Source of the DNA: Kiloniellales bacterium
Lineage (GTDB): Bacteria > Pseudomonadota > Alphaproteobacteria > Kiloniellales > JAKSBE01
Assembly (NCBI GenBank): GCA_030067055.1
Contig: JASJAL010000373.1
Coordinates: 1-6,664, forward strand
Direction of reading: 5' to 3'
DNA: 6,664 bases
Made by a program: the position numbers and the translations under genes. The first letter of the stretch is position 1; every line of letters starts with the position of its first letter. This document shows positions 1 to 6,664 of the stretch, piece after piece. The notes below the pieces were generated by a model. The model was not told the origin of the DNA and made no database searches. It saw nothing but the letters and a program-made list of their open reading frames with translations.

Positions 1-498
1 CGAGAAGGGCTCGTCCATCAGGACCACCGGCCGCTCCTCCATCAGGGTCCGGGCCAGGGCGCAGCGCTGGCGCATACCGCCGGAGAGAGCCGCGGGCAGG
101 GCTTCGCCTGAGCTTTGCAGGCCAACCCGCGCCAGCAGTTCCGCGGCGCGATCCCGCAGGGCCGACGTCACTGCCTCGCCGCGCAGGCGCGGCCCGAGCA
201 GCAAGTTGTCGCGGACCTTGAGCCAGGGCAGCAGCAGGTCCTGCTGTGCCATGTAGGCCACCCGACCGGTCAGGGGTTGGCCGGCACCGTCCTCGACCCG
301 GCCTTCGGCGCCCTCGGCCAAGCCGGCGATCAGTCGCAGCAGGGAAGACTTGCCGACCCCCGAGGGTCCCAGCAGGCAGGTGATCTCGCCGGCCGGAAGA
401 TCGAGTGACAGGTCTACGAAGAGTGCCTCGCCCTCAAAGCCCAGGTGGGCCTCTCGCAGGGCTATCGAGGGGGCGTCCGGCTCGACGGGTGGTTTCAT
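1..498 (-). CDS. thiZ: ABC transporter ATP-binding protein, probable thiamine/precursor importer (partial)
   Basis: This is the ATPase subunit of an ABC importer, which binds the cytoplasmic face of the permease and hydrolyses ATP. The 166 codons read here run off the left edge, so the D-loop end and switch histidine are missing. Walker A is GPSGVGKS (residues 44-51), the Q-loop is QQD (85-87), the signature is LSGGMRQR (138-145) and Walker B is VVLMDEP (158-164). The LLPWLKVRDN segment (89-98) is typical of the NitT/TauT branch (SsuB, TauB, ThiZ). The start is ATG at 498, with an AGGGAG Shine-Dalgarno 8 nt upstream. A TPP riboswitch sits in the leader, so the cargo is inferred to be thiamine or its pyrimidine precursor (HMP or a relative). 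The partner permease and binding protein would lie to the left, outside the window. The ATPase call is firm; the substrate and the symbol rest on the riboswitch. Confidence 0.85.
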   Translation of the reverse strand, partial: MKPPVEPDAPSIALREAHLGFEGEALFVDLSLDLPAGEITCLLGPSGVGKSSLLRLIAGLAEGAEGRVEDGAGQPLTGRVAYMAQQDLLLPWLKVRDNLLLGPRLRGEAVTSALRDRAAELLARVGLQSSGEALPAALSGGMRQRCALARTLMEERPVVLMDEPFS

Positions 499-505
499 CC
501 TTCAC

Positions 506-600
506 GCTCCCTGCGCCAGCATGACCTGGATCAGGTTTTAGGGGTCGTCCTGGGTTCCAGGACCTCTCAGCCGATTGACCGGCTCCCCCGGTGGCAGGCA
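506..600 (-). promoter_or_regulatory. TPP riboswitch (THI element)
   Basis: Read on the minus strand, this leader has the conserved THI-box parts in order. A GGGG run near 590 pairs with CCCC near 540 (P2). An AGCCG/CGGCU hairpin (P3) is followed by CUGAGA (plus 565-570), the pyrimidine-binding core. A variable hairpin GUCCUGG/CCAGGAC comes next. Then P4 forms from CCUG (plus 532-535) and CAGG (plus 510-513), enclosing P5 CCAG/CUGG (plus 526-529 and 516-519) with the conserved CAUG-CUGGCG-CAGGGA end. The family senses thiamine pyrophosphate and shuts expression when it is abundant. The 3' P4 arm overlaps the AGGGAG Shine-Dalgarno (507-512) of the ABC ATPase gene, and no U-tract terminator is seen. 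This favours control of translation initiation. The outer P1 stem is not clear to me. Confidence 0.93.
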
Positions 601-602
601 TG

Positions 603-632
603 ACTATAGGCAGCCCGGGGCTCAGAGAACAA
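603..632 (-). promoter_or_regulatory. candidate promoter for the riboswitch/ABC ATPase transcript
   Basis: On the minus strand TTGTTC (632-627), an 18-nt spacer and TATAGT (608-603) resemble a sigma-70 promoter. The -10 is good and the -35 is weak (first three bases match). The predicted start near 596 lies just inside the presumed riboswitch 5' end, which argues for caution. The -10 lies in the palindrome CTATAG (604-609), so it could be read from either strand. Confidence 0.35.
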
Positions 633-664
633 GCGGAGCCCAGAGTCGGCGGAGGGACTGCGAA

Positions 665-1828
665 GTGTCGTTGCAGGGACAGACCGCGTGGCCGGAGGCC
701 GCCGGACTCGAGCGCCCCAAGCTGATCGGCAGCGAGATCTACCGCAGCTCCTCCTACGGCGGTCGCCACCCGCTTTCGATTCCCCGGGTCTCGACGGTGA
801 TCGACCTTTGCCGGAGCCTGGGTTGGCTGCCGGACGCGGCCTACATCGACAGCCCGGTCGCTACGCCAGCCCAGCTGGCGCGCTTCCACGACACGGACTA
901 CGTTACGGCGGTCCGGACCCTGGAGCGGACCCAGGCCGCCAGCGAGGTCCAGCGCCGGCGCCACAACCTGGGCTGCAACGGCAATCCGGTCTTCCCGGAG
1001 GTGTTCCGGCGGCCGGCCACGGCCTGCGGCGGCTCGATACTCGGCGCCCGACTGATCCGCGACGGCGGAACGGTCTACAATCCCGCCGGCGGCACGCACC
1101 ACGGCCGGCCGGACCGGGCCAGCGGCTTTTGCTATTTCAACGACCCGGTCCTGGGGATCCTGACCCTGCTCGACGCCGGCCTGGAGCGGGTGCTCTACAT
1201 CGATGTCGACGCTCACCACGGCGACGGGGTCCAAGACGCCCTCAGCGGCGACGGCCGGGTCCTGGTGGTCTCGCTACACGAGGCCGGCCGCTGGCCGCTG
1301 CATCAAGGCGGGCCCTATGGCTCGGTGACGGATCTCGGCGGCGGCTGGGCGCGCAATCTGCCGCTGCCGCCCGAGACCAACGACAGCGAGTTCGCCTTCT
1401 TGATGGAGACTGCGGTGCTGCCGCTGGCCGAGAGCTTCGCGCCCGACGCAGTGGTCCTGCAGGGTGGGGCCGACGCCCTGGCGGAGGATCCGCAAAGCCG
1501 CCTGGGACTGTCGAACCGGGCGCTGTGGGACGCCGTGGAAGCGGTCTCTGGCCTCGCCCCGCGGCGGCTGGTGCTGGGCGGGGGCGGCTACAATCCCTGG
1601 TCCGTGGCGCGCTGCTGGAGCGGGGTCTGGGCGCGGCTCAACGGCTTCGAGATCCCGGAGCGGCTGCCGCCGGAGGGTGAGGCGGTGCTGCGCGCCCTAT
1701 CCTGGCGCCACAGCCGCGGCCGCAACCCGCCGGAGGCTTGGTTCACCACCCTGCAGGATCCGCCGAGGCCTGGTCCGGTCCGCGACGAGGTCCGGCAGCT
1801 CGCCGCGGCCCTGCCTGGCCTGGGATAG
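665..1828 (+). CDS. histone deacetylase family protein (AcuC-like zinc deacetylase)
   Basis: This is a zinc-dependent deacetylase of the arginase/HDAC fold, closest in motifs to class I HDACs and bacterial AcuC. The expected reaction is removal of acetyl groups from acetyl-lysine proteins or small acetylated amines in the cytoplasm; the substrate is not known. The start chosen is GTG at 665, with GGAGGG (651-656) 8 nt before it, giving 387 residues. An in-frame TTG at 575 would place coding inside the riboswitch DNA. Visible motifs are the catalytic His pair in GGTHHGRP (H145, H146), zinc ligands D182 and H184 in IDVDAHHGDG, the third ligand D270 in QGGADAL, and the catalytic tyrosine Y309 in GGGGYNPWSVARCW. 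ASGFCYFND (152-160) also matches class I enzymes. All catalytic residues are present, so it should be active. The DUF192 gene follows 38 bp downstream, probably in the same transcript. No acs or acuA is nearby. Confidence 0.93.
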   Translation: MSLQGQTAWPEAAGLERPKLIGSEIYRSSSYGGRHPLSIPRVSTVIDLCRSLGWLPDAAYIDSPVATPAQLARFHDTDYVTAVRTLERTQAASEVQRRRHNLGCNGNPVFPEVFRRPATACGGSILGARLIRDGGTVYNPAGGTHHGRPDRASGFCYFNDPVLGILTLLDAGLERVLYIDVDAHHGDGVQDALSGDGRVLVVSLHEAGRWPLHQGGPYGSVTDLGGGWARNLPLPPETNDSEFAFLMETAVLPLAESFAPDAVVLQGGADALAEDPQSRLGLSNRALWDAVEAVSGLAPRRLVLGGGGYNPWSVARCWSGVWARLNGFEIPERLPPEGEAVLRALSWRHSRGRNPPEAWFTTLQDPPRPGPVRDEVRQLAAALPGLG

Positions 1829-1866
1829 CCCTTGCGCAGGGCTTCGCTCGGCGATATGCCAGGGGC

Positions 1867-2349
1867 ATGTCCGCAGCTTGCCACGCCCTGTCCCGCATTC
1901 TTCTCCTGGTCGTGCTGATGGTGCCGGTCGCGACGCGGCCGACGTTTGCAGAGATCGAATTTCCGGAGGGGGATCTGGCGATCGTGACGGCGGACGGCGC
2001 GCGCCACGACTTTCGCATCGAACTTGCGGTGACCCCGGATCAGCGCGCGCAGGGCCTGATGCACCGAAAGGCGCTGGCGCCCGATGCGGGCATGCTCTTC
2101 GTCTATGCCCGGCCGGGGGAAGTGGCGATGTGGATGAAGAACACGCTCATCTCCCTCGATATGATGTTTATTTCGGCGGAGGGAGAGATCGTCAGGATTG
2201 CCGAGCGGACGGTGCCGCTGTCGCTGGCCACGATCGAGTCTGGATCACCGGCCAAGGGGGTACTCGAGGTTCCCGCTGGAACGGCTGCCAGGCTCGGCAT
2301 CCGACCCGGTGACCAGATTCTGCATCCGGCCTTCGGGTCTAGCCCCTAG
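1867..2349 (+). CDS. exported DUF192 family protein
   Basis: This 160-residue protein begins with a signal peptide: a short basic start, a hydrophobic run ILLLVVLMVPVA (11-22), and a likely cleavage after TFA (residue 28). The mature part matches the DUF192 fold, with the family motifs QGLMHRKAL (62-70), MWMKNT (88-93) and LDMMFI (97-102), and the C-terminal VLEVPAGTAARLGIRPGD (132-149). DUF192 proteins are small, mostly beta, usually exported, and lack a settled biochemical role. The start is ATG at 1867. AGGGG lies only 1 nt upstream, so the ribosome site is poorly spaced, and translation may depend on coupling to the deacetylase gene 38 bp upstream. No other in-frame start fits the signal peptide as well. 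Family call firm, function unknown. Confidence 0.88.
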   Translation: MSAACHALSRILLLVVLMVPVATRPTFAEIEFPEGDLAIVTADGARHDFRIELAVTPDQRAQGLMHRKALAPDAGMLFVYARPGEVAMWMKNTLISLDMMFISAEGEIVRIAERTVPLSLATIESGSPAKGVLEVPAGTAARLGIRPGDQILHPAFGSSP

Positions 2350-2373
2350 CAACCGCACTCAACAGCGTTGGGC

Positions 2374-2670
2374 TCAGGCCTCGGGCTCGAGAGCCAGCTT
2401 CTCCATCATCCGCCAGCCTTCGCCAGCGGCCACCAGGCAGCTCATGCCCTGCGGCGAGGTGATGATGATCGACCAGGTCTTGCCTTCGCCCGTGCTCAGC
2501 ACCTCGATCAGGCCACCATTGTGGGTGACGCCGAGCGCAACCGGAGCCTCGCGATACTTATCGGAAAGCTGCTTGATCACGCTGTCGCGCGTGTTGCACT
2601 GGGGCTCCGCAGATGCCGCGGAGGCCGAGAGGGCGAGGATGGCACCGGTGGTGATAACCGTCTTCCACAT
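2374..2670 (-). CDS. small exported protein of unknown function
   Basis: This 98-residue protein has an N-terminal signal peptide (MWKTVITTGAILALSASAASA) with a probable cleavage after residue 21, leaving about 77 mature residues in the periplasm. The start ATG at 2670 has AAAGGGG 6 nt upstream, a strong ribosome site. The mature part has two cysteines, C25 and C78, that could form a disulfide. It also has a Gly-rich SGEGKTW-type segment (around 59-66) and MSCLVAAGEGWR (76-87). From memory, similar short secreted proteins ending in C-x-VAAGE-x-W recur in Rhodospirillales-type genomes without an assigned function; that is recollection, not a search. It converges on the DUF192 gene with a 24-nt gap and has its own AT-rich upstream region, so it is probably a single-gene unit. 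Confidence 0.85.
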   Translation of the reverse strand: MWKTVITTGAILALSASAASAEPQCNTRDSVIKQLSDKYREAPVALGVTHNGGLIEVLSTGEGKTWSIIITSPQGMSCLVAAGEGWRMMEKLALEPEA

Positions 2671-2758
2671 GGGAGACCCCTTTCATGGGCAAGGGTTTTT
2701 CCGCGGCTGTCGGGCCAAGCGTGGCTGGCTGTCCGGCCGGCTCAGGGGTCGATTGTCA

Positions 2759-2857
2759 CTGGGAAGACTGAAAATCGGATTAATTTTCCCTAAAGAAAGT
2801 ATTAACCATGATTAATCGCAGTTTCTGTCACATTTTCAGTTACTTATGCTTAGTGTC
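2759..2857. promoter_or_regulatory. AT-rich intergenic region with operator-like repeats
   Basis: This part of the 187-bp gap between two leftward genes is strikingly AT-rich against a GC-rich background. It holds GATTAAT at 2778-2784 and again at 2810-2816, starting 32 bp apart (about three helical turns). The second copy is part of a near-perfect 16-bp palindrome, ATTAACCATGATTAAT (2801-2816, one mismatched pair). A perfect 9-bp inverted repeat, ACTGAAAAT (2767-2775) and ATTTTCAGT (2832-2840), encloses both. It should hold the promoter of the small exported protein gene and perhaps the end of the methyltransferase transcript. I could not settle on a convincing -35/-10 pair or a hairpin-plus-U terminator. 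Confidence 0.5.
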
Positions 2858-3520
2858 CTAGCGCTTTCGGGCCAGGCTGAGACCGTCACTGATAGGGACC
2901 ATCGAGAGCGAGATTCGGGGGTCTTCTCGCAGCCTGAGATTGAGGGCGCGGATCGCTTCGGTGTCCGGGTCCCGGGCCGCCGGGTTGGCCACGGCGCCGT
3001 TCCAGAGGACGTTGTCGATCGCGAGCAGGCCGCCCTGGCGCAGCAGAGCGAGGCAGCGCTCGTAGTACGCCACGTAGTTCTCCTTATCCGCGTCGATGAA
3101 GGCGAAATCGAAGCTCTCGGCGGCACCTGCGACCAGCAAGCCGTCGAGGGTGTCGAGCGCCGGGGCCAGCCGCAGGTCGATCTTCTCCGCGACCCCGGCC
3201 TCGGCCCAATATCGCTGGGCAACGGCGGTGGTCTCGGGCTCCACGTCGCAGGCGATGATCCGGCCGTCGGGTGGCAAAGCCAGGGCCATGGACAGGGCGG
3301 AATAGCCCGTGAAGGTGCCGATCTCCAGGACCCGCTTGGCGCCGGTCAACTCGATCAGTAGCGCCATGAACTGGCCCTGCTCGGGCGAGATCTGCATGCC
3401 GGCGTCGCCCCTCCGCGCCGTTTCCTCGCGTAGCCGTGTGAGCAGGTCAGGTTCGCGCAGGGAGAACTCCAGCAGGTACCGGTGCAGGTCTTCGGTTAGG
3501 GGGGTCGGTCGGTAGGACAT
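2858..3520 (-). CDS. SAM-dependent O-methyltransferase, family 3 (CCoAOMT-like)
   Basis: This 220-residue protein is full length for the bacterial relatives of caffeoyl-CoA and catechol O-methyltransferases. These transfer a methyl group from S-adenosylmethionine to a hydroxyl, usually of a catechol, with a divalent metal. The SAM-binding motif is VLEIGTFTGYSALSMA (64-79), followed by ACDVEP (90-95). The metal-site motifs are FIDADKENY (141-149, D143) and LLAIDNVLWNGAVA (165-178, D169 and N170), matching the Asp, Asp, Asn triad of plant CCoAOMT. The family C-terminal ISDGLSLARK is also present (210-219). The start ATG at 3520 has only a weak AGAGAG-type ribosome site about 7 nt upstream. The natural substrate cannot be read from sequence. 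It is divergent from the GNAT gene across 190 bp and probably monocistronic. Confidence 0.92.
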   Translation of the reverse strand: MSYRPTPLTEDLHRYLLEFSLREPDLLTRLREETARRGDAGMQISPEQGQFMALLIELTGAKRVLEIGTFTGYSALSMALALPPDGRIIACDVEPETTAVAQRYWAEAGVAEKIDLRLAPALDTLDGLLVAGAAESFDFAFIDADKENYVAYYERCLALLRQGGLLAIDNVLWNGAVANPAARDPDTEAIRALNLRLREDPRISLSMVPISDGLSLARKR

Positions 3521-3535
3521 CGCTGCTCTCTGCCA

Positions 3536-3548
3536 AGGTTTAAAACCT
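3536..3548. repeat. 13-bp perfect palindrome AGGTTTAAAACCT
   Basis: The arms AGGTTT and AAACCT flank a single central A, 16 bp upstream of the O-methyltransferase start codon. Its position in the presumed leader or promoter suits an operator for a dimeric regulator. No regulator for it is encoded nearby. Confidence 0.5.
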
Positions 3549-3582
3549 GTACCGGGCCGCTGCCAGGACCCGACCGGAAAGG

Positions 3583-3637
3583 CCTGTCCAATGAATCACC
3601 GCGGCCAGGCTGCTGCGCAAGGGCATTTCTGGACAGG
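3583..3637. repeat. 8-bp inverted repeat in the divergent intergenic gap
   Basis: CCTGTCCA (3583-3590) and TGGACAGG (3630-3637) are perfect reverse complements, 39 bp apart, within the 190-bp gap between the methyltransferase and GNAT genes. The right arm contains the predicted -35 hexamer of the GNAT promoter, so a bound regulator could affect transcription. Confidence 0.4.
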
Positions 3638-3658
3638 AACAAAACAAGAACATAGACT
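3630..3658 (+). promoter_or_regulatory. candidate sigma-70 promoter for the GNAT gene
   Basis: TGGACA (3630-3635, 5 of 6 to TTGACA), exactly 17 bp, then TAGACT (3653-3658, 4 of 6 to TATAAT). Transcription would start near 3665, leaving a leader of about 46 nt before ATG 3711. This is the best-spaced pair in the gap. Confidence 0.5.
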
Positions 3659-3710
3659 GCTGACGAGACCCAGTGACCTGAATCGGAACTTTGGAGACCC
3701 AGGCGAGACC

Positions 3711-4337
3711 ATGGGCGACAGGAATCCACCCAAATCCCGAAGCGTGGCCGCGCGGACCGCCGAGACGGGTGCGCTGAAGATCCTGCCAGCCACGCCGGCG
3801 CGCTGGACCGACTTCGAGGCGCTGCTCGGTCAACGCGGCGGATATGGCGGCTGCTGGTGCATGCTGTGGCGGCTTGAGCGCAAGGACTTCGAAGCCCAGT
3901 CCGGAGCCGGCAACCGGGCAGCGATGAAAGCGCTCTTCGAAGCCGGGGCGGAGCCCGGGTTGATCGCCTACGACGGCGACCAGCCGGTTGGCTGGTGCTC
4001 GGTCGCGCCGCGGACCGACTTTCCGCGTCTCGAGCGTTCCCGGGTGCTGCGAGCGGTGGACGATCGGGAAGTCTGGTCGTTGTCCTGCTTCCTGATCCGC
4101 AAGTCGCATCGCAACCGCGGGGTCTCGCGCGCGCTGCTGGCCGCGGCCTGTGACTTCGTCCGGGCGCGGGGCGGCCGCATTCTCGAGGGTTACCCCATCG
4201 ATCCCAAAACCACGCCCTATCCGGCGGTCTATGCCTGGACGGGGCTCGCCTCGGCCTTTCGGGCCGACGGCTTCGAAGAGGTCCTACGTCGCTCGGAAAC
4301 CCGGCCGATCTTCCGCAAGCGGCTTTCGCCCGATTGA
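3711..4337 (+). CDS. GNAT family N-acetyltransferase
   Basis: This is a predicted acetyl-CoA-dependent N-acetyltransferase of 208 residues from ATG 3711. The frame is open upstream to 3591, but that stretch holds the likely promoter, so the shorter form is chosen although its ribosome site is weak (GGAG lies 14 nt away). The GNAT core is clear. A substrate-side segment GGYGGCWCMLWRLERKDF (43-60) is followed by beta strands around GLIAYDGDQPVGWCSVAPR (83-101). Next is VWSLSCFLIRKSHRNRGVSRALLAAACDF (121-149), carrying the acetyl-CoA pyrophosphate loop RNRGVS (134-139). It ends with GGRILEGYPIDP (154-165), an aromatic AYAW-like segment and a final strand. The GCWCM and ILEGYP motifs mark a recurring bacterial GNAT subgroup with unknown substrates. 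It converges with the next leftward gene, only 22 bp away. Confidence 0.88.
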   Translation: MGDRNPPKSRSVAARTAETGALKILPATPARWTDFEALLGQRGGYGGCWCMLWRLERKDFEAQSGAGNRAAMKALFEAGAEPGLIAYDGDQPVGWCSVAPRTDFPRLERSRVLRAVDDREVWSLSCFLIRKSHRNRGVSRALLAAACDFVRARGGRILEGYPIDPKTTPYPAVYAWTGLASAFRADGFEEVLRRSETRPIFRKRLSPD

Positions 4338-4359
4338 CGCGAATGCGGAGCCGGTGTCG

Positions 4360-4734
4360 CTATCCGGTAGGTCTCGCCGCGCGCAGGGCGCGCTCCAGGT
4401 CGCGCAATGCCAAGCGCAGGTGGATCCGGCTCGCCGCTTGCCGGGCCAAGCGGTGCCGCCGCCGATGATAACCGAGGGCGAGCAGAGCCAGATCTTCACC
4501 GGTCCCGTCGGTCGCCGCGCGGGCCCGGCGGGTCTCGGCACAGCTGCTGCGGGCCTCGCGGCGCGCCACGGCCATCAGGCCTTCCAGCTGGAGCAGGCGC
4601 TGCCTGAGCGGATCGCGGTTCCGCAGCCGGTCTCGTAGCACCGGCGGCAGGGCATCGTAGCGTAGCTCTTCGGTCAGGTCGGGAGCCTGTTCGCAACCGA
4701 CCGGGCCGCGATCGGGGATAATATCGCACATCAT
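4360..4734 (-). CDS. uncharacterised phage-associated protein, 124 aa
   Basis: I do not recognise this protein. From the ATG pair at 4734 it has 124 residues. The frame stays open to an ATG at 4758, but that would put the promoter and operator repeat inside the gene. The first 30 residues include two cysteines (C3, C14). The rest is predicted to be mostly helical and rich in Arg, Leu and Ala, with an amphipathic stretch around LRDRLRNRDPLRQRLLQLEGLMAVARREA (33-61) and a basic end (89-122). That would suit a small nucleic-acid-binding or coiled-coil protein, but this is inference. There is no Shine-Dalgarno, and the predicted transcript start is the A of the ATG. The same promoter and operator plan drives the rightward early operon, which ties this gene to the repressor next door. 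It may be the leftmost gene of the element. Confidence 0.6.
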   Translation of the reverse strand: MMCDIIPDRGPVGCEQAPDLTEELRYDALPPVLRDRLRNRDPLRQRLLQLEGLMAVARREARSSCAETRRARAATDGTGEDLALLALGYHRRRHRLARQAASRIHLRLALRDLERALRAARPTG

Positions 4735-4756
4735 CGAGAGAACGTACGATATTATC
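4717..4756. repeat. 10-bp inverted repeat, predicted operator at the start of the 124-aa gene
   Basis: GATAATATCG (4717-4726) and CGATATTATC (4747-4756) are perfect reverse complements. The match extends past one mismatch as GATAATATCGcAC and GTaCGATATTATC. Centres are 30 bp apart, near three helical turns, so a dimer or tetramer could bind both on one face. The right arm overlaps the predicted promoter and the left arm lies in codons 2-6 of the gene. Each arm also contains the small dyad GATA-N-TATC. Confidence 0.7.
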
Positions 4757-4769
4757 ATAGCGCAGTCAA
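4735..4769 (-). promoter_or_regulatory. predicted leaderless promoter for the 124-aa gene
   Basis: On the minus strand TTGACT (4769-4764), 17 nt, then TACGTT (4746-4741), then 6 nt to ATG 4734. The -10 is weak alone (3 of 6) but sits in TCGTACGTT, which is nearly identical in sequence and position to the rightward promoter at 5648. An overlapping TATGAT (4760-4755) is a better -10 by sequence but has no matching -35. Confidence 0.5.
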
Positions 4770-4836
4770 AGGCGCTGTCGTGCGAAATCTCCGTGCGGCG
4801 ACCGACTTTCGAAGCCGAGCCGGGGCTGGCGCGGCC

Positions 4837-5607
4837 TCAGGTCCATTGCCAGCGACCGATGACCCGGCCGTTGACGGTAACGTCCTCCAACGGACGCTCG
4901 TAGACCGCATAGTCGGCGTTGGCGCTGATCAACCTAACGGTCGCCGGATCGGAATAGGGGATGACCTCGAGCCGCTTGATCACCAGGCCGAAACCGTCCC
5001 AAACGATGAACACGCCGGGCGGCGAGGGCAGGCGGTCGTCGGTGTTGACCAAGACCCGCTCGCCCGGCCGGAAATCGGGCACCATGCTGTCGCCGTGGAC
5101 CCGGATGATGCGCAGCGAAGCCGGCGCCGCTTGGGTGTGGCTGCGCAGGAACTCGAACGGGATCTGCCATTCGGCGATCATCGCCTGCGGGTCCGCGAGG
5201 TCCGGAATCGCGCCGCCTCCAGCCAGGGCTCTGACGTCGAGCTCGGGAACCGGGGCCAGGGTGGTCGCGGCCTCGGCGGGCCCGATCCGATGCCGCTGCG
5301 GGGTTCGCTCGGCACCGGGCCGATCGGACACGCCCGGCTCGCTTGCGAAGAGGGCCCGCGTCACCCCGGCGAGGGCAAGGACGTCATTGCTCGTGATCGC
5401 CGGCTCGCCTCGGCCGACCAGCACCGTCTCCAGCTGCTTGGCCAGTTCCAGCGGCAGGTAGGGCTTGCGGTACTTGTCCTCGTAAGAGGCATAGGTCGAG
5501 GCCGGCCGCTCGATGGCCGAAGCCACTTCGCGGACCGAAAGCCCGCTGCGTTCGCGCAGGCGCTTGAGGTCTCGGGCTGCTGCCGACGTTTCTGCCATGG
5601 TCGCCAT
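4837..5607 (-). CDS. prophage repressor: XRE-type HTH with S24 (LexA/CI-like) peptidase domain
   Basis: This is a CI/LexA-type repressor, 256 residues from ATG 5607. ATG 5598 is an alternative (253 aa), and the frame is open to 5685, but that longer form would cover the divergent promoter. Residues about 12-62 form the DNA-binding domain (LKRLRERSGLSVREVASAI, then the STYASYED recognition region). A linker follows to about 120. The S24 domain has a nucleophilic serine in GDSM (S174) and the lysine of the dyad in VIKRLEV (K211). An Ala-Gly bond at 129-130 (ALAGGG) lies where self-cleavage occurs in this family, so the repressor may be inactivated by RecA after DNA damage; cleavage itself is not proven. 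A TCGTAC site directly before the start suggests autoregulation. No good Shine-Dalgarno is seen at either start. It is divergent from the rightward small-gene operon. Confidence 0.92.
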   Translation of the reverse strand: MATMAETSAAARDLKRLRERSGLSVREVASAIERPASTYASYEDKYRKPYLPLELAKQLETVLVGRGEPAITSNDVLALAGVTRALFASEPGVSDRPGAERTPQRHRIGPAEAATTLAPVPELDVRALAGGGAIPDLADPQAMIAEWQIPFEFLRSHTQAAPASLRIIRVHGDSMVPDFRPGERVLVNTDDRLPSPPGVFIVWDGFGLVIKRLEVIPYSDPATVRLISANADYAVYERPLEDVTVNGRVIGRWQWT

Positions 5608-5610
5608 CTT

Positions 5611-5616
5611 GTACGA
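5611..5616 (-). promoter_or_regulatory. TCGTAC operator-like site at the repressor start
   Basis: Minus-strand TCGTAC (plus GTACGA, 5611-5616) lies 3 nt before ATG 5607 and 12 nt before ATG 5598. With the site at 5669 it forms a perfect 7-bp inverted repeat, TGTACGA (5610-5616) and TCGTACA (5669-5675). Bound repressor here would block its own translation start or late promoter region. Confidence 0.5.
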
Positions 5617-5640
5617 CTTGAACACACATTGCAACACGAA

Positions 5641-5683
5641 AATATCGTTGACACGAACAGCGAAAAAATCGTACATTCCGATC
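5641..5683 (+). promoter_or_regulatory. rightward early promoter with overlapping operators, predicted leaderless
   Basis: A perfect TTGACA (5648-5653), 18 bp, then TACATT (5672-5677, 4 of 6), followed by 6 nt and ATG 5684. The predicted +1 is about 5684, the A of the ATG, and no Shine-Dalgarno precedes it. Operator-like AATATCGT (5641-5648) touches the -35 and TCGTACA (5669-5675) covers the -10. This is a classic layout for repression by the divergent CI-like protein. Confidence 0.65.
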
Positions 5684-5899
5684 ATGATCTCAACATCTCA
5701 TCGCCGAAGGGAACGCCGCCGCCGAAGGTCGCGGCGCCCGCGCAAGCTTCTCAAGGGCATAGCCAGCAATCTGGTCCGTCACCCGCACTATCCCTGGTTG
5801 GCATTCGATCCGCGTGGCGTGGCCGCGGTGGAGGCCAGCCGCGACCTGCAGAAGAAGCCCGGCCTCTTCGCTCCCAGGACCCCGGCCCATGCCGACTAG
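5684..5899 (+). CDS. small arginine-rich protein, first gene of the rightward operon
   Basis: This encodes 71 residues from ATG 5684. The N-terminus is extremely basic (RRRERRRRRSRRPRK, 7-21). It is followed by a compact helical-looking part, LLKGIASNLVRHPHYPWLAFDPRG (22-45) and VAAVEASRDLQKKPGLFA (46-63). The basic arm suggests nucleic-acid binding, but no family is recognised and function is unknown. It is the first gene after the strong repressor-controlled promoter, and no Shine-Dalgarno precedes the ATG, consistent with a leaderless message. Its end overlaps the next gene by 11 nt. Support comes from promoter position and the overlapping gene chain more than from homology, so the exact start is uncertain. 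Confidence 0.6.
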   Translation: MISTSHRRRERRRRRSRRPRKLLKGIASNLVRHPHYPWLAFDPRGVAAVEASRDLQKKPGLFAPRTPAHAD

Positions 5900-6080
5900 G
5901 TTGCGGGCCTTTCTGGCCCAGCAGCGCTCCCGTGGCATGTCCGATCAGGCGATCCGACGGGCCCTGAGACTCTCGCGCCAGGAGGCTGCCGAGGCCGAGC
6001 TCTTCGGCCCGAAAGAGACGGTTGGACGGCCAGCCGATGGCAGAGATAAAGCGCCCGTCGGTCCGAGGCGGCGGTCATGA
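5889..6080 (+). CDS. small HTH-like protein, second gene of the rightward operon
   Basis: This encodes 63 residues from ATG 5889, with AGGA (5876-5879) 9 nt upstream. It begins inside the end of the preceding gene (11-nt overlap) and ends with a 4-nt ATGA overlap with the next, a layout that indicates translational coupling. Residues about 4-40 (LRAFLAQQRSRGMSDQAIRRALRL then SRQEAAEAELFG) look like a helix-turn-helix segment in which RGMSDQAIRRALRLS would be the turn and recognition part. The C-terminal third is basic, Pro/Gly-rich and probably disordered. No named family is recognised; a small phage DNA-binding protein is the likeliest reading. Confidence 0.6.
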   Translation: MPTRLRAFLAQQRSRGMSDQAIRRALRLSRQEAAEAELFGPKETVGRPADGRDKAPVGPRRRS

Positions 6081-6625
6081 GTCCGCCGTCAAGTGGCGCC
6101 AGGACCTGGGTTTCCTGGCCGGTGGCCGCGCGCCAGGGCGGCCGGCTACGCCGGCGGGTGGAAGTTCGGGACTGGGAGCCGCCGCCGGAAGACCCGATCG
6201 ACGAAGCGACCGGCGAGCCGCTGATCTGGCAGCCGGGCCACGTCCGTGCCTGGATCCGCGAGGCCATGGAGACCCTGCGGCGCCTGCCCCTGCCCAAGGA
6301 CGGCCTGCCCCGCCGGCCCAGCAGCCACATGCCCGATGTCCTGCACGAGTTCGTCGAGGCCTACGGTTACGATCGAGGCCGGGCCCGGGAACCGGTGTCG
6401 CGCCGCGAAATCGGCCGCCTCGACCGGGTCCTCGACTGGCTGATGTGGCTGGATGATCGGGAGGAGGCCGTGGTGGTCACCGGGCTGGCCCTGGGCCTCA
6501 ACCTGCGCGCCGCTGGCCGCCTGGTCGGCCGCAGCCACGAATGGTGCCGGCGGCGCGAACGGGCGGCGGTCGAGGAGATCGCCCGACGGCTGAACCGGGC
6601 CCGAAGGCGCAAGGCCGTCTTGTGA
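6077..6625 (+). CDS. DUF6362-like phage protein
   Basis: This encodes 182 residues from ATG 6077 with GAGG (6065-6068) 8 nt upstream. After a basic N-terminus (1-30), the conserved-looking part starts at WQPGHVRAWIREAMETLRRLPLP (51-73). It continues with MPDVLHEFVEAYGYDRGR (85-102) and RLDRVLDWLMWLDDREEAVVVTGLALG (114-140), then a C-terminal helix-turn-helix-like segment, NLRAAGRLVGRSHEWCRRRERAAVEEIA (142-169). From memory this arrangement (LRRLPxP, YGY/WG, LxWLxWLD, then HTH) is that of DUF6362, a family of alphaproteobacterial prophages placed between early genes and later modules. Its role is unknown; the HTH suggests DNA binding, perhaps regulatory. It ends at TGA 6623-6625 with a possible GTGA overlap to a further gene. 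Confidence 0.75.
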   Translation: MSPPSSGARTWVSWPVAARQGGRLRRRVEVRDWEPPPEDPIDEATGEPLIWQPGHVRAWIREAMETLRRLPLPKDGLPRRPSSHMPDVLHEFVEAYGYDRGRAREPVSRREIGRLDRVLDWLMWLDDREEAVVVTGLALGLNLRAAGRLVGRSHEWCRRRERAAVEEIARRLNRARRRKAVL

Positions 6626-6664
6626 TCGGGGTCGCCGGGCGATTCCGGCCGAGCGCCCCTCGGG
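6622..6664 (+). CDS. possible start of a further operon gene (partial)
   Basis: GTG at 6622 overlaps the preceding stop as GTGA, with AAGG (6611-6614) 7 nt upstream, and the frame stays open to the window end (14 codons). This continues the overlap pattern of the operon. Too little sequence is present to judge the product or to be sure it is a gene. Confidence 0.25.
   Translation, partial: MIGVAGRFRPSAPR

Follow-up and report, generated by a model that had tools for sequence, protein, structure and literature searches.

Does a phage-type repressor switch in a bacterium of the order Kiloniellales (Alphaproteobacteria) drive both of its early genes from messages that begin at the start codon itself? 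The locus lies on contig JASJAL010000373.1 of assembly GCA_030067055.1, of which positions 1 to 6,664 (6,664 nucleotides, hereafter the window) were analysed. In it, the gene of an S24 (LexA/CI-type) repressor stands between two outward-facing promoters, and an original prediction, made from the letters alone, held that each of these lies 6 nt before an ATG that has no Shine-Dalgarno sequence, yielding a repressor-controlled pair of leaderless messages. From its sequence we consider it quite probable that this is the immunity region of a chromosomally fixed, phage-derived element whose early promoters are both blocked by the repressor and leaderless. We read it as a lambda-type switch in variant form, and as a pointer to something more widespread.

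Results

Three relative genomes served for comparison, two recovered through close repressors and the third found through those two. Repressor matches at E <= 1e-20 occur in 23 of the 190 relatives searched, only these three (G001, G002 and G003) standing at about 90% identity, and the same three are the ones among the 190 that carry the left early gene. The window mostly aligns to all three at 77-90% identity by block (to G001 in two contigs), and close homologues of its proteins come from metagenome-assembled genomes (MAGs) of Kiloniellales. Across the right control region the four genomes, window included, align without gaps; the left control region can be compared in three.

Both promoters lie where they had been predicted, and their layout is kept in the relatives. 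On the right (plus strand), the -35 hexamer TTGACA (5648-5653) is invariant in all four genomes and appears in the list of a consensus scan, where the promoter scores 10/12 and is one of 3 sites reported for the window, 0.3 being the expectation; an 18-nt spacer, read from the sequence (5654-5671), leads to the -10 hexamer TACATT (5672-5677), whose TAC is invariant and whose second half varies by genome (TACATT, TACATT, TACTTA and TACAAA), and the gap CCGATC (5678-5683) measures 6 nt in all four at a mean pairwise identity of 42%. On the left (minus strand), the -35 hexamer TTGACT (4769-4764), within a CTTTGAC kept in all three genomes, is followed at a constant 17 nt by TACGTT (4746-4741; TACGTT, TACACT and TACGTC in the three genomes) and by the gap CTCTCG (4740-4735), again 6 nt in each, at 44% identity. 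Four left proteins annotated with upstream extensions all read FD-x5-SY-x3-M, hence the same -35 and the same 6-nt spacing. By hand count the left promoter scores 8/12, under the scanner's cut-off of 9, and it is absent from the scanner's list; the overlapping alternative chosen by the scanner (ACGACA-16-TATGAT) is lost in both relatives that reach the region and was rejected.

The inverted repeats of the window resolve into CGA-N5-TCG with an AT-rich core, operators that the original prediction had overlooked. On the right, operator OR1 (CGAAAAAATCG, 5661-5671), centred 18 bp before the ATG, is identical in all four genomes and, with TTGACA and TAC, forms the invariant part of the alignment; OR2 (CGAAAATATCG, 5637-5647) abuts the -35 and keeps CGA-N5-TCG in all four; and a weak, degenerate OR3-like site (CGACTTGAACA, 5614-5624), adjoining the -10 of the repressor promoter, has 4/6 consensus bases in the window and 5/6 in each of the three relatives. 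The centres of OR1 and OR2 are 24 bp apart in every genome, those of OR2 and the OR3-like site 23 bp. On the left, OL1 (CGATATTATCA, 4747-4757), also centred 18 bp before its ATG, is a perfect CGA-N5-TCG in both relatives with the region, so that OR1 and OL1 each abut a -10 at equal distance from the start codon. OL2 (GGATAATATCG, 4716-4726), which falls within the left gene at codons 3-7, and the operator-like OL3 (CGAAATCTCCG, 4783-4793), upstream of the left -35, have one mismatch each, as they do in both relatives, at unchanged spacing; the overlap of OL2 with the coding sequence may be the source of the recurring M-x-Y-E/D-x-I beginning of the left protein.

Allowing one mismatch, five of the six CGA-N5-TCG-like matches in the window fall within 197 bp of control DNA (two regions), as compared with 0.6 on average and 4 at most in dinucleotide shuffles, none of 2000 reaching five. 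This count measures fit only, because the motif was derived from the same sites. Independent backing comes from the sequence and spacing kept in the relatives and from the 14-mer CGAWWWWWTCGTAC, whose 5 occurrences in three whole genomes are every one at the switch locus; as predicted repressor sites the operators are well supported, and with them the claim that the pair is under repressor control. The stretch ATCGTACRTTC, which the promoters do share with one difference, is accordingly explained in the main as an operator half-site beside a -10 and not as a property of leaderless promoters.

The leading alternative starts from the same motif: It might be a repressor operator and nothing else, with the true early promoters and starts elsewhere, behind ordinary leaders. 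The best-conserved part is, after all, CGA-N5-TCG plus TAC, the rest of the right -10 varying in two relatives, and a TAC stands beside OL2 as well, where there is no -10, in both relatives that reach the region. However, TTGAC never varies on either side, at a spacing of 17 or 18 bp, though no operator abuts the left TTGAC; the distance from -10 to ATG is fixed while its letters drift; and the 22 nt before either ATG hold no Shine-Dalgarno sequence for a longer leader to use. We therefore regard this alternative as unlikely, if worth keeping in mind.

A gap between -10 and ATG that is constant in length and variable in its letters is what one would expect if its distance were constrained and its sequence were not. 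The lack of a Shine-Dalgarno sequence is borne out by duplex energies with the anti-Shine-Dalgarno sequence (scanned over the 22 nt before the ATG less the last three), which are +0.4 kcal/mol on the right (four genomes) and +0.6 kcal/mol on the left (three), against -2.1 to -9.7 kcal/mol for eight other starts of the window, hand-picked and two of them placed one base off. Messages that begin at the start codon are thus our best prediction from the 6-nt distance, and leaderless expression of both early genes is likely.

A variant of this proposal is that the leaders are short and not absent, transcription starting a few nucleotides before the ATG or at shifted positions around it. Related loci (see below) are spread over 5-10 nt between -10 and ATG with no single value, and the repressor gene itself, possibly near-leaderless, has a candidate -10, TACAAG (5613-5608, minus strand; TACAAT or TACAAA in relatives), 9 nt before its ATG at 5598 in all four genomes. 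This is a further TCGTAC-type hexamer, overlooked in the original prediction; no good -35 accompanies it by eye, and the repressor start is also weak in duplex energy (-0.9 to -2.5 kcal/mol). Since both early promoters of this lineage keep exactly 6 nt, we hold short leaders to be improbable for them.

If the proteins instead began upstream, at a right ATG at 5597 (87 nt before 5684) or a left ATG at 4758, the promoters would lie inside coding DNA. The right frame is indeed open over the 87 nt in all four genomes, and of the five homologues of the right gene three are annotated from the equivalent ATG, P0115 from the upstream ATG and P0119 from a downstream start; on the left, 4 of 17 homologues are annotated with extensions, and the in-frame ATG at 4758 had been overlooked. 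The DNA behind the P0115 annotation, however, evolves as non-coding: Over the 87 nt, variable columns by codon position are [11,10,9], with 58 non-synonymous and 12 synonymous codon differences, whereas codons 1-29 of the right gene give [2,1,10], with 7 non-synonymous and 38 synonymous. These statistics confirm the right start at 5684. The left start at 4734 is confirmed by a methionine that all 17 homologues have in this column; neither G002 nor G003 has an ATG corresponding to the one at 4758, and in G002 the left gene has no other start before a stop. Upstream starts are accordingly rejected as very improbable, on the right because of the codon statistics and on the left because no upstream start is shared, and the homologues examined for starts elsewhere with a normal Shine-Dalgarno sequence, P0119 and its downstream start aside, yielded none.

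Annotation on the opposite strand is affected by the same DNA. The repressor start at 5598 is marked by a change in variable columns from [10,11,9] upstream to [2,0,9] after it. Twelve repressor proteins are annotated across the right control region, with YDFF near their start: In 11 of the 12, which read M-x3-YDFF and include the window's own (P0001) and probably that of G001, the -10/ATG spacing is the same, and the twelfth, P0017, begins closer. Positions 5597-5684 of the window have frames open on both strands in all four genomes, and gene callers can be misled on both sides.

Chance resemblance of two AT-rich spots, suggested by the 8/12 of the unlisted left site, is scarcely credible given the conservation in relatives, the operators unique to the locus and the scarcity of the pattern genome-wide: The whole genomes of the three relatives (5.2-6.0 Mb) contain TTGAC-N16-19-TACNNT-N6-ATG 5 times, 2 of the 5 at the switch locus, and its reversed control once, so that a pair of them on either side of a single repressor gene greatly exceeds what chance would give.

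The repressor (4837-5598, minus strand) matches PF00717 and, in its XRE-type helix-turn-helix (HTH), PF13560, both above cut-off; Ser175 and Lys212 are present in 19 of 19 aligned rows and the Ala-Gly site in 16 of 19 (numbering of the 257-aa query). A Ser/Lys dyad with an Ala-Gly site marks an S24 autoprotease repressor. The right early gene (5684-5899, plus strand, ATG at 5684-5686) encodes 71 aa with an arginine-rich N-terminus and has no Pfam match above cut-off, no HTH family and no PHROG match; the second gene of its operon (5889-6080, plus strand, 63 aa, read as an open frame) overlaps it and, scanned as the longer open reading frame (ORF) 5814-6080, matches no family above cut-off. The left early gene (4360-4734, minus strand, ATG at 4734-4732) encodes 124 aa modelled by AlphaFold as a helical hairpin (predicted local distance difference test, pLDDT, 78), with no Pfam match above cut-off and no PHROG match. 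A pattern scan of IMG/VR viral contigs confirmed no relative of either small protein.

To see how far the layout extends, we collected 186 loci of related repressors (L001-L186), of which 177 have usable upstream DNA, 96 are non-redundant and 58 have a divergent-strand promoter scoring at least 8. The best promoter was chosen without regard to any ATG, and the ATG counted was the first to open an ORF of at least 40 aa. The divergent gene begins 5-10 nt after the -10 in 26 of the 58, the Kiloniellales locus included; ATG density in that range is 4.7 per position, as against 0.5 at 11-99 nt. Six decoy sets of -35/-10 hexamers gave 17 of 182 in sum (p 1e-8 versus 26/58). By source, the layout occurs in 7 of 25 genome-collection loci, 17 of 27 viral contigs and 2 of 6 loci from other genomes. 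Among gammaproteobacterial controls it is found in 0 of the 15 reaching the score (of 18, two pairs being near-identical; Fisher p 0.0006, or 0.0014 with 13 independent controls); these comprise lambda, P22 and 16 phages taken by name diversity from the 60 listed of 415 phage records, before any promoter was inspected. Scans of viral contigs with the P22 and lambda CI repressors gave near-identical loci, which were left out of the controls.

On the repressor side of the surveyed loci the -10/ATG distance is 5-9 nt in 11 of 30, and downstream, on the side of the left gene, 5-10 nt occurs in 2 of 37, with no enrichment. Because of this difference between 26/58 and 2/37, we take the right leaderless arm to be customary in switches of this group and the left arm to be the lineage's own; a leaderless early pair, which had been called unusual, is hence unusual in its left partner only. 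Several of the divergent ORFs resemble, by eye, small Cro-type HTH proteins. For the Gluconacetobacter and L105 clusters, indels in the ungapped comparison spoiled a codon-position test, which was set aside. Titles of the genome loci are mostly alphaproteobacterial, not all (the 7 include L078, a Nitrospinota MAG), and for the viral contigs, whose records do not tell the host, we infer that label.

Discussion

The features of the locus suggest how the switch would operate. The SOS-type S24 repressor would bind the CGA-N5-TCG operators, OR1 and OL1 covering the spacer together with the border of the -10 and thereby blocking the early promoters on the right and left. From OR2 to the predicted start of the repressor transcript (5601) it is about 41 bp, close to the position at which lambda CI activates its own promoter. 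Upon cleavage of the repressor both early promoters would fire, and with six bases from -10 to ATG their messages would begin at the AUG or within 1-2 bases of it, to be translated without a leader.

The likeness to lambda is close in plan. In both, an S24 repressor is accompanied by divergent promoters, and the operator spacings of 24 bp and, to the degenerate OR3-like site, 23 bp are those of lambda (centres 38006, 37982 and 37959). The lambdoid phage mEp234, annotated by similarity to lambda, has its right start 17 bp from the centre of oR1 as against 18 here, and its repressor start 42 bp from the centre of oR2 as against 41. The differences concern the early genes. Lambda cro has a leader with a Shine-Dalgarno sequence (24 nt from -10 to ATG, with AAGGAGG), whereas the right gene here has none; the divergent gene of such a switch would be expected to encode a Cro-like HTH protein, whereas this one matches no HTH family; and here a left promoter, likewise of leaderless layout, comes immediately after the repressor gene.

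Leaderless messages are described for lambda cI and PaaR2 (PMC8630535) and for SetR of the SXT/R391 elements (PMC4542580). As predicted for the genes considered here, these messages have a 5' AUG and lack a Shine-Dalgarno sequence; they belong to HTH or HTH-S24 regulators of prophages or an integrative element. There the leaderless message is that of the repressor or regulator, whereas here it is predicted for both of the early, repressed genes. As a measure of scale, 375 leaderless mRNAs (9.6% of coding sequences) are reported for Caulobacter (PMC4117421) and 171 for Sinorhizobium (PMC3616915). Among the titles and abstract openings listed by our literature search, which left most subscription journals outside its range, none describes leaderless prophage genes on the cro side.

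Which element does the switch control? In G002 and G003 the switch, terL and the capsid genes lie in the same order on one contig, and in the relatives terL, portal and capsid genes are interspersed with host-type genes (portal and host-type genes between switch, terL and capsid are displayed by G003 only). Phage head genes kept at one chromosomal position among host genes, the arrangement found here, are a trait of gene transfer agents (GTAs) and domesticated prophages. In all three relatives (L220, L221, L222) the terL operon has a leader running a short way from promoter to terminator, with two operator-like sites, and the hairpins of the intrinsic terminator were folded. The third gene of the right operon (6077-6625, plus strand) encodes a DUF6362 protein with a predicted HTH like that of sigma region 4. 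Its model weakly resembles both the antiterminator Q21 and sigma region 4, and the distant terL operon might be where the protein acts, in the role of late regulator or antiterminator. Against BFVD it has one match below E 0.001, to an unnamed viral protein, and a single-sequence search of IMG/VR viral contigs found none. A second DUF6362 copy is present in G002 (C236:1352-1849, 49% identity).

A possible parallel is the Caulobacter GTA, for which control by GafY/GafZ and an antiterminator with a predicted sigma-factor-like HTH that bypasses terminators are described (PMC11150451). Both systems have a phage-derived late operon on the host chromosome, terminators and a regulator, here a putative one, with a predicted sigma-like HTH. 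The locus described here differs in having an S24 repressor with operators before its early operon, and antitermination by DUF6362 is for now a conjecture.

Taken together, these points allow a bolder proposal, which we offer tentatively and think somewhat improbable as a whole: that leaderless messages on the lytic side are standing equipment of alphaproteobacterial prophage switches, that in this lineage the left arm was converted to the same form, making the SOS switch leaderless throughout, and that the element under its control is GTA-like, dispersed and inherited vertically, its late operon opened by a Q21-like DUF6362 protein. The first lytic gene would then have a form that lets 70S ribosomes initiate on a 5' AUG with nothing before it. 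Should transcript starts be mapped to the AUG, many prophages related to this one would make their first lytic proteins by leaderless initiation, and prophage induction would be tied to translation by 70S ribosomes. The locus itself supplies a precise operator model that can be tested, and it draws attention to an element of phage origin in Kiloniellales that is as yet uncharacterised.

Several observations weigh against a leaderless, repressor-blocked early pair in such an element or against its proposed late step. Of the right -10 sequences, TACTTA in one relative has 2/6 consensus bases by hand count and another relative has TACAAA, so that the assignment of this hexamer rests on its position. 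At the DNA level the left layout is known from three genomes, the left gene of G001 being on another contig that ends inside the gene, and codons 1-14 of the left gene vary at all positions, for which reason codon statistics do not confirm its start. In the survey, the genome-collection loci taken alone (7/25 versus 0/15) give p 0.03, or 0.07 with 13 independent controls, and two named alphaproteobacterial phages lack the layout, the best promoter of RcapNL being below threshold and phi2LM21 lacking a suitable ORF within 150 nt. For DUF6362 the model has low confidence (pLDDT 66.7), its structural comparisons stay at Z < 8 with Q21 rows tied with sigma rows, a Foldseek search gave no PDB match at E < 0.001, and a profile search of PDB sequences gave nothing better than E 0.4.

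Other features of the region

In G003, a phytanoyl-CoA dioxygenase (PhyH) gene directly follows terL (L190:3143-4195, minus strand). On contig C19 of the same genome, between the portal-side and capsid genes and on the strand opposite to the phage genes, lies a pair encoding a NACHT/NB-ARC protein with a cyclase domain and a TPR-like protein (L206:15093-18604); with a G+C content at third codon positions of 0.71-0.77, below that of most neighbours, this pair is a possible defence-like insert in the phage-derived cluster. At the far end of the window, a thiamine pyrophosphate (TPP) riboswitch (Rfam RF00059, 68.9 bits; 490-599, minus strand) stands at the start of an ORF for an ATPase like those of ATP-binding cassette (ABC) transporters (1-498, minus strand), an assignment made by eye on the strength of Walker and signature motifs.

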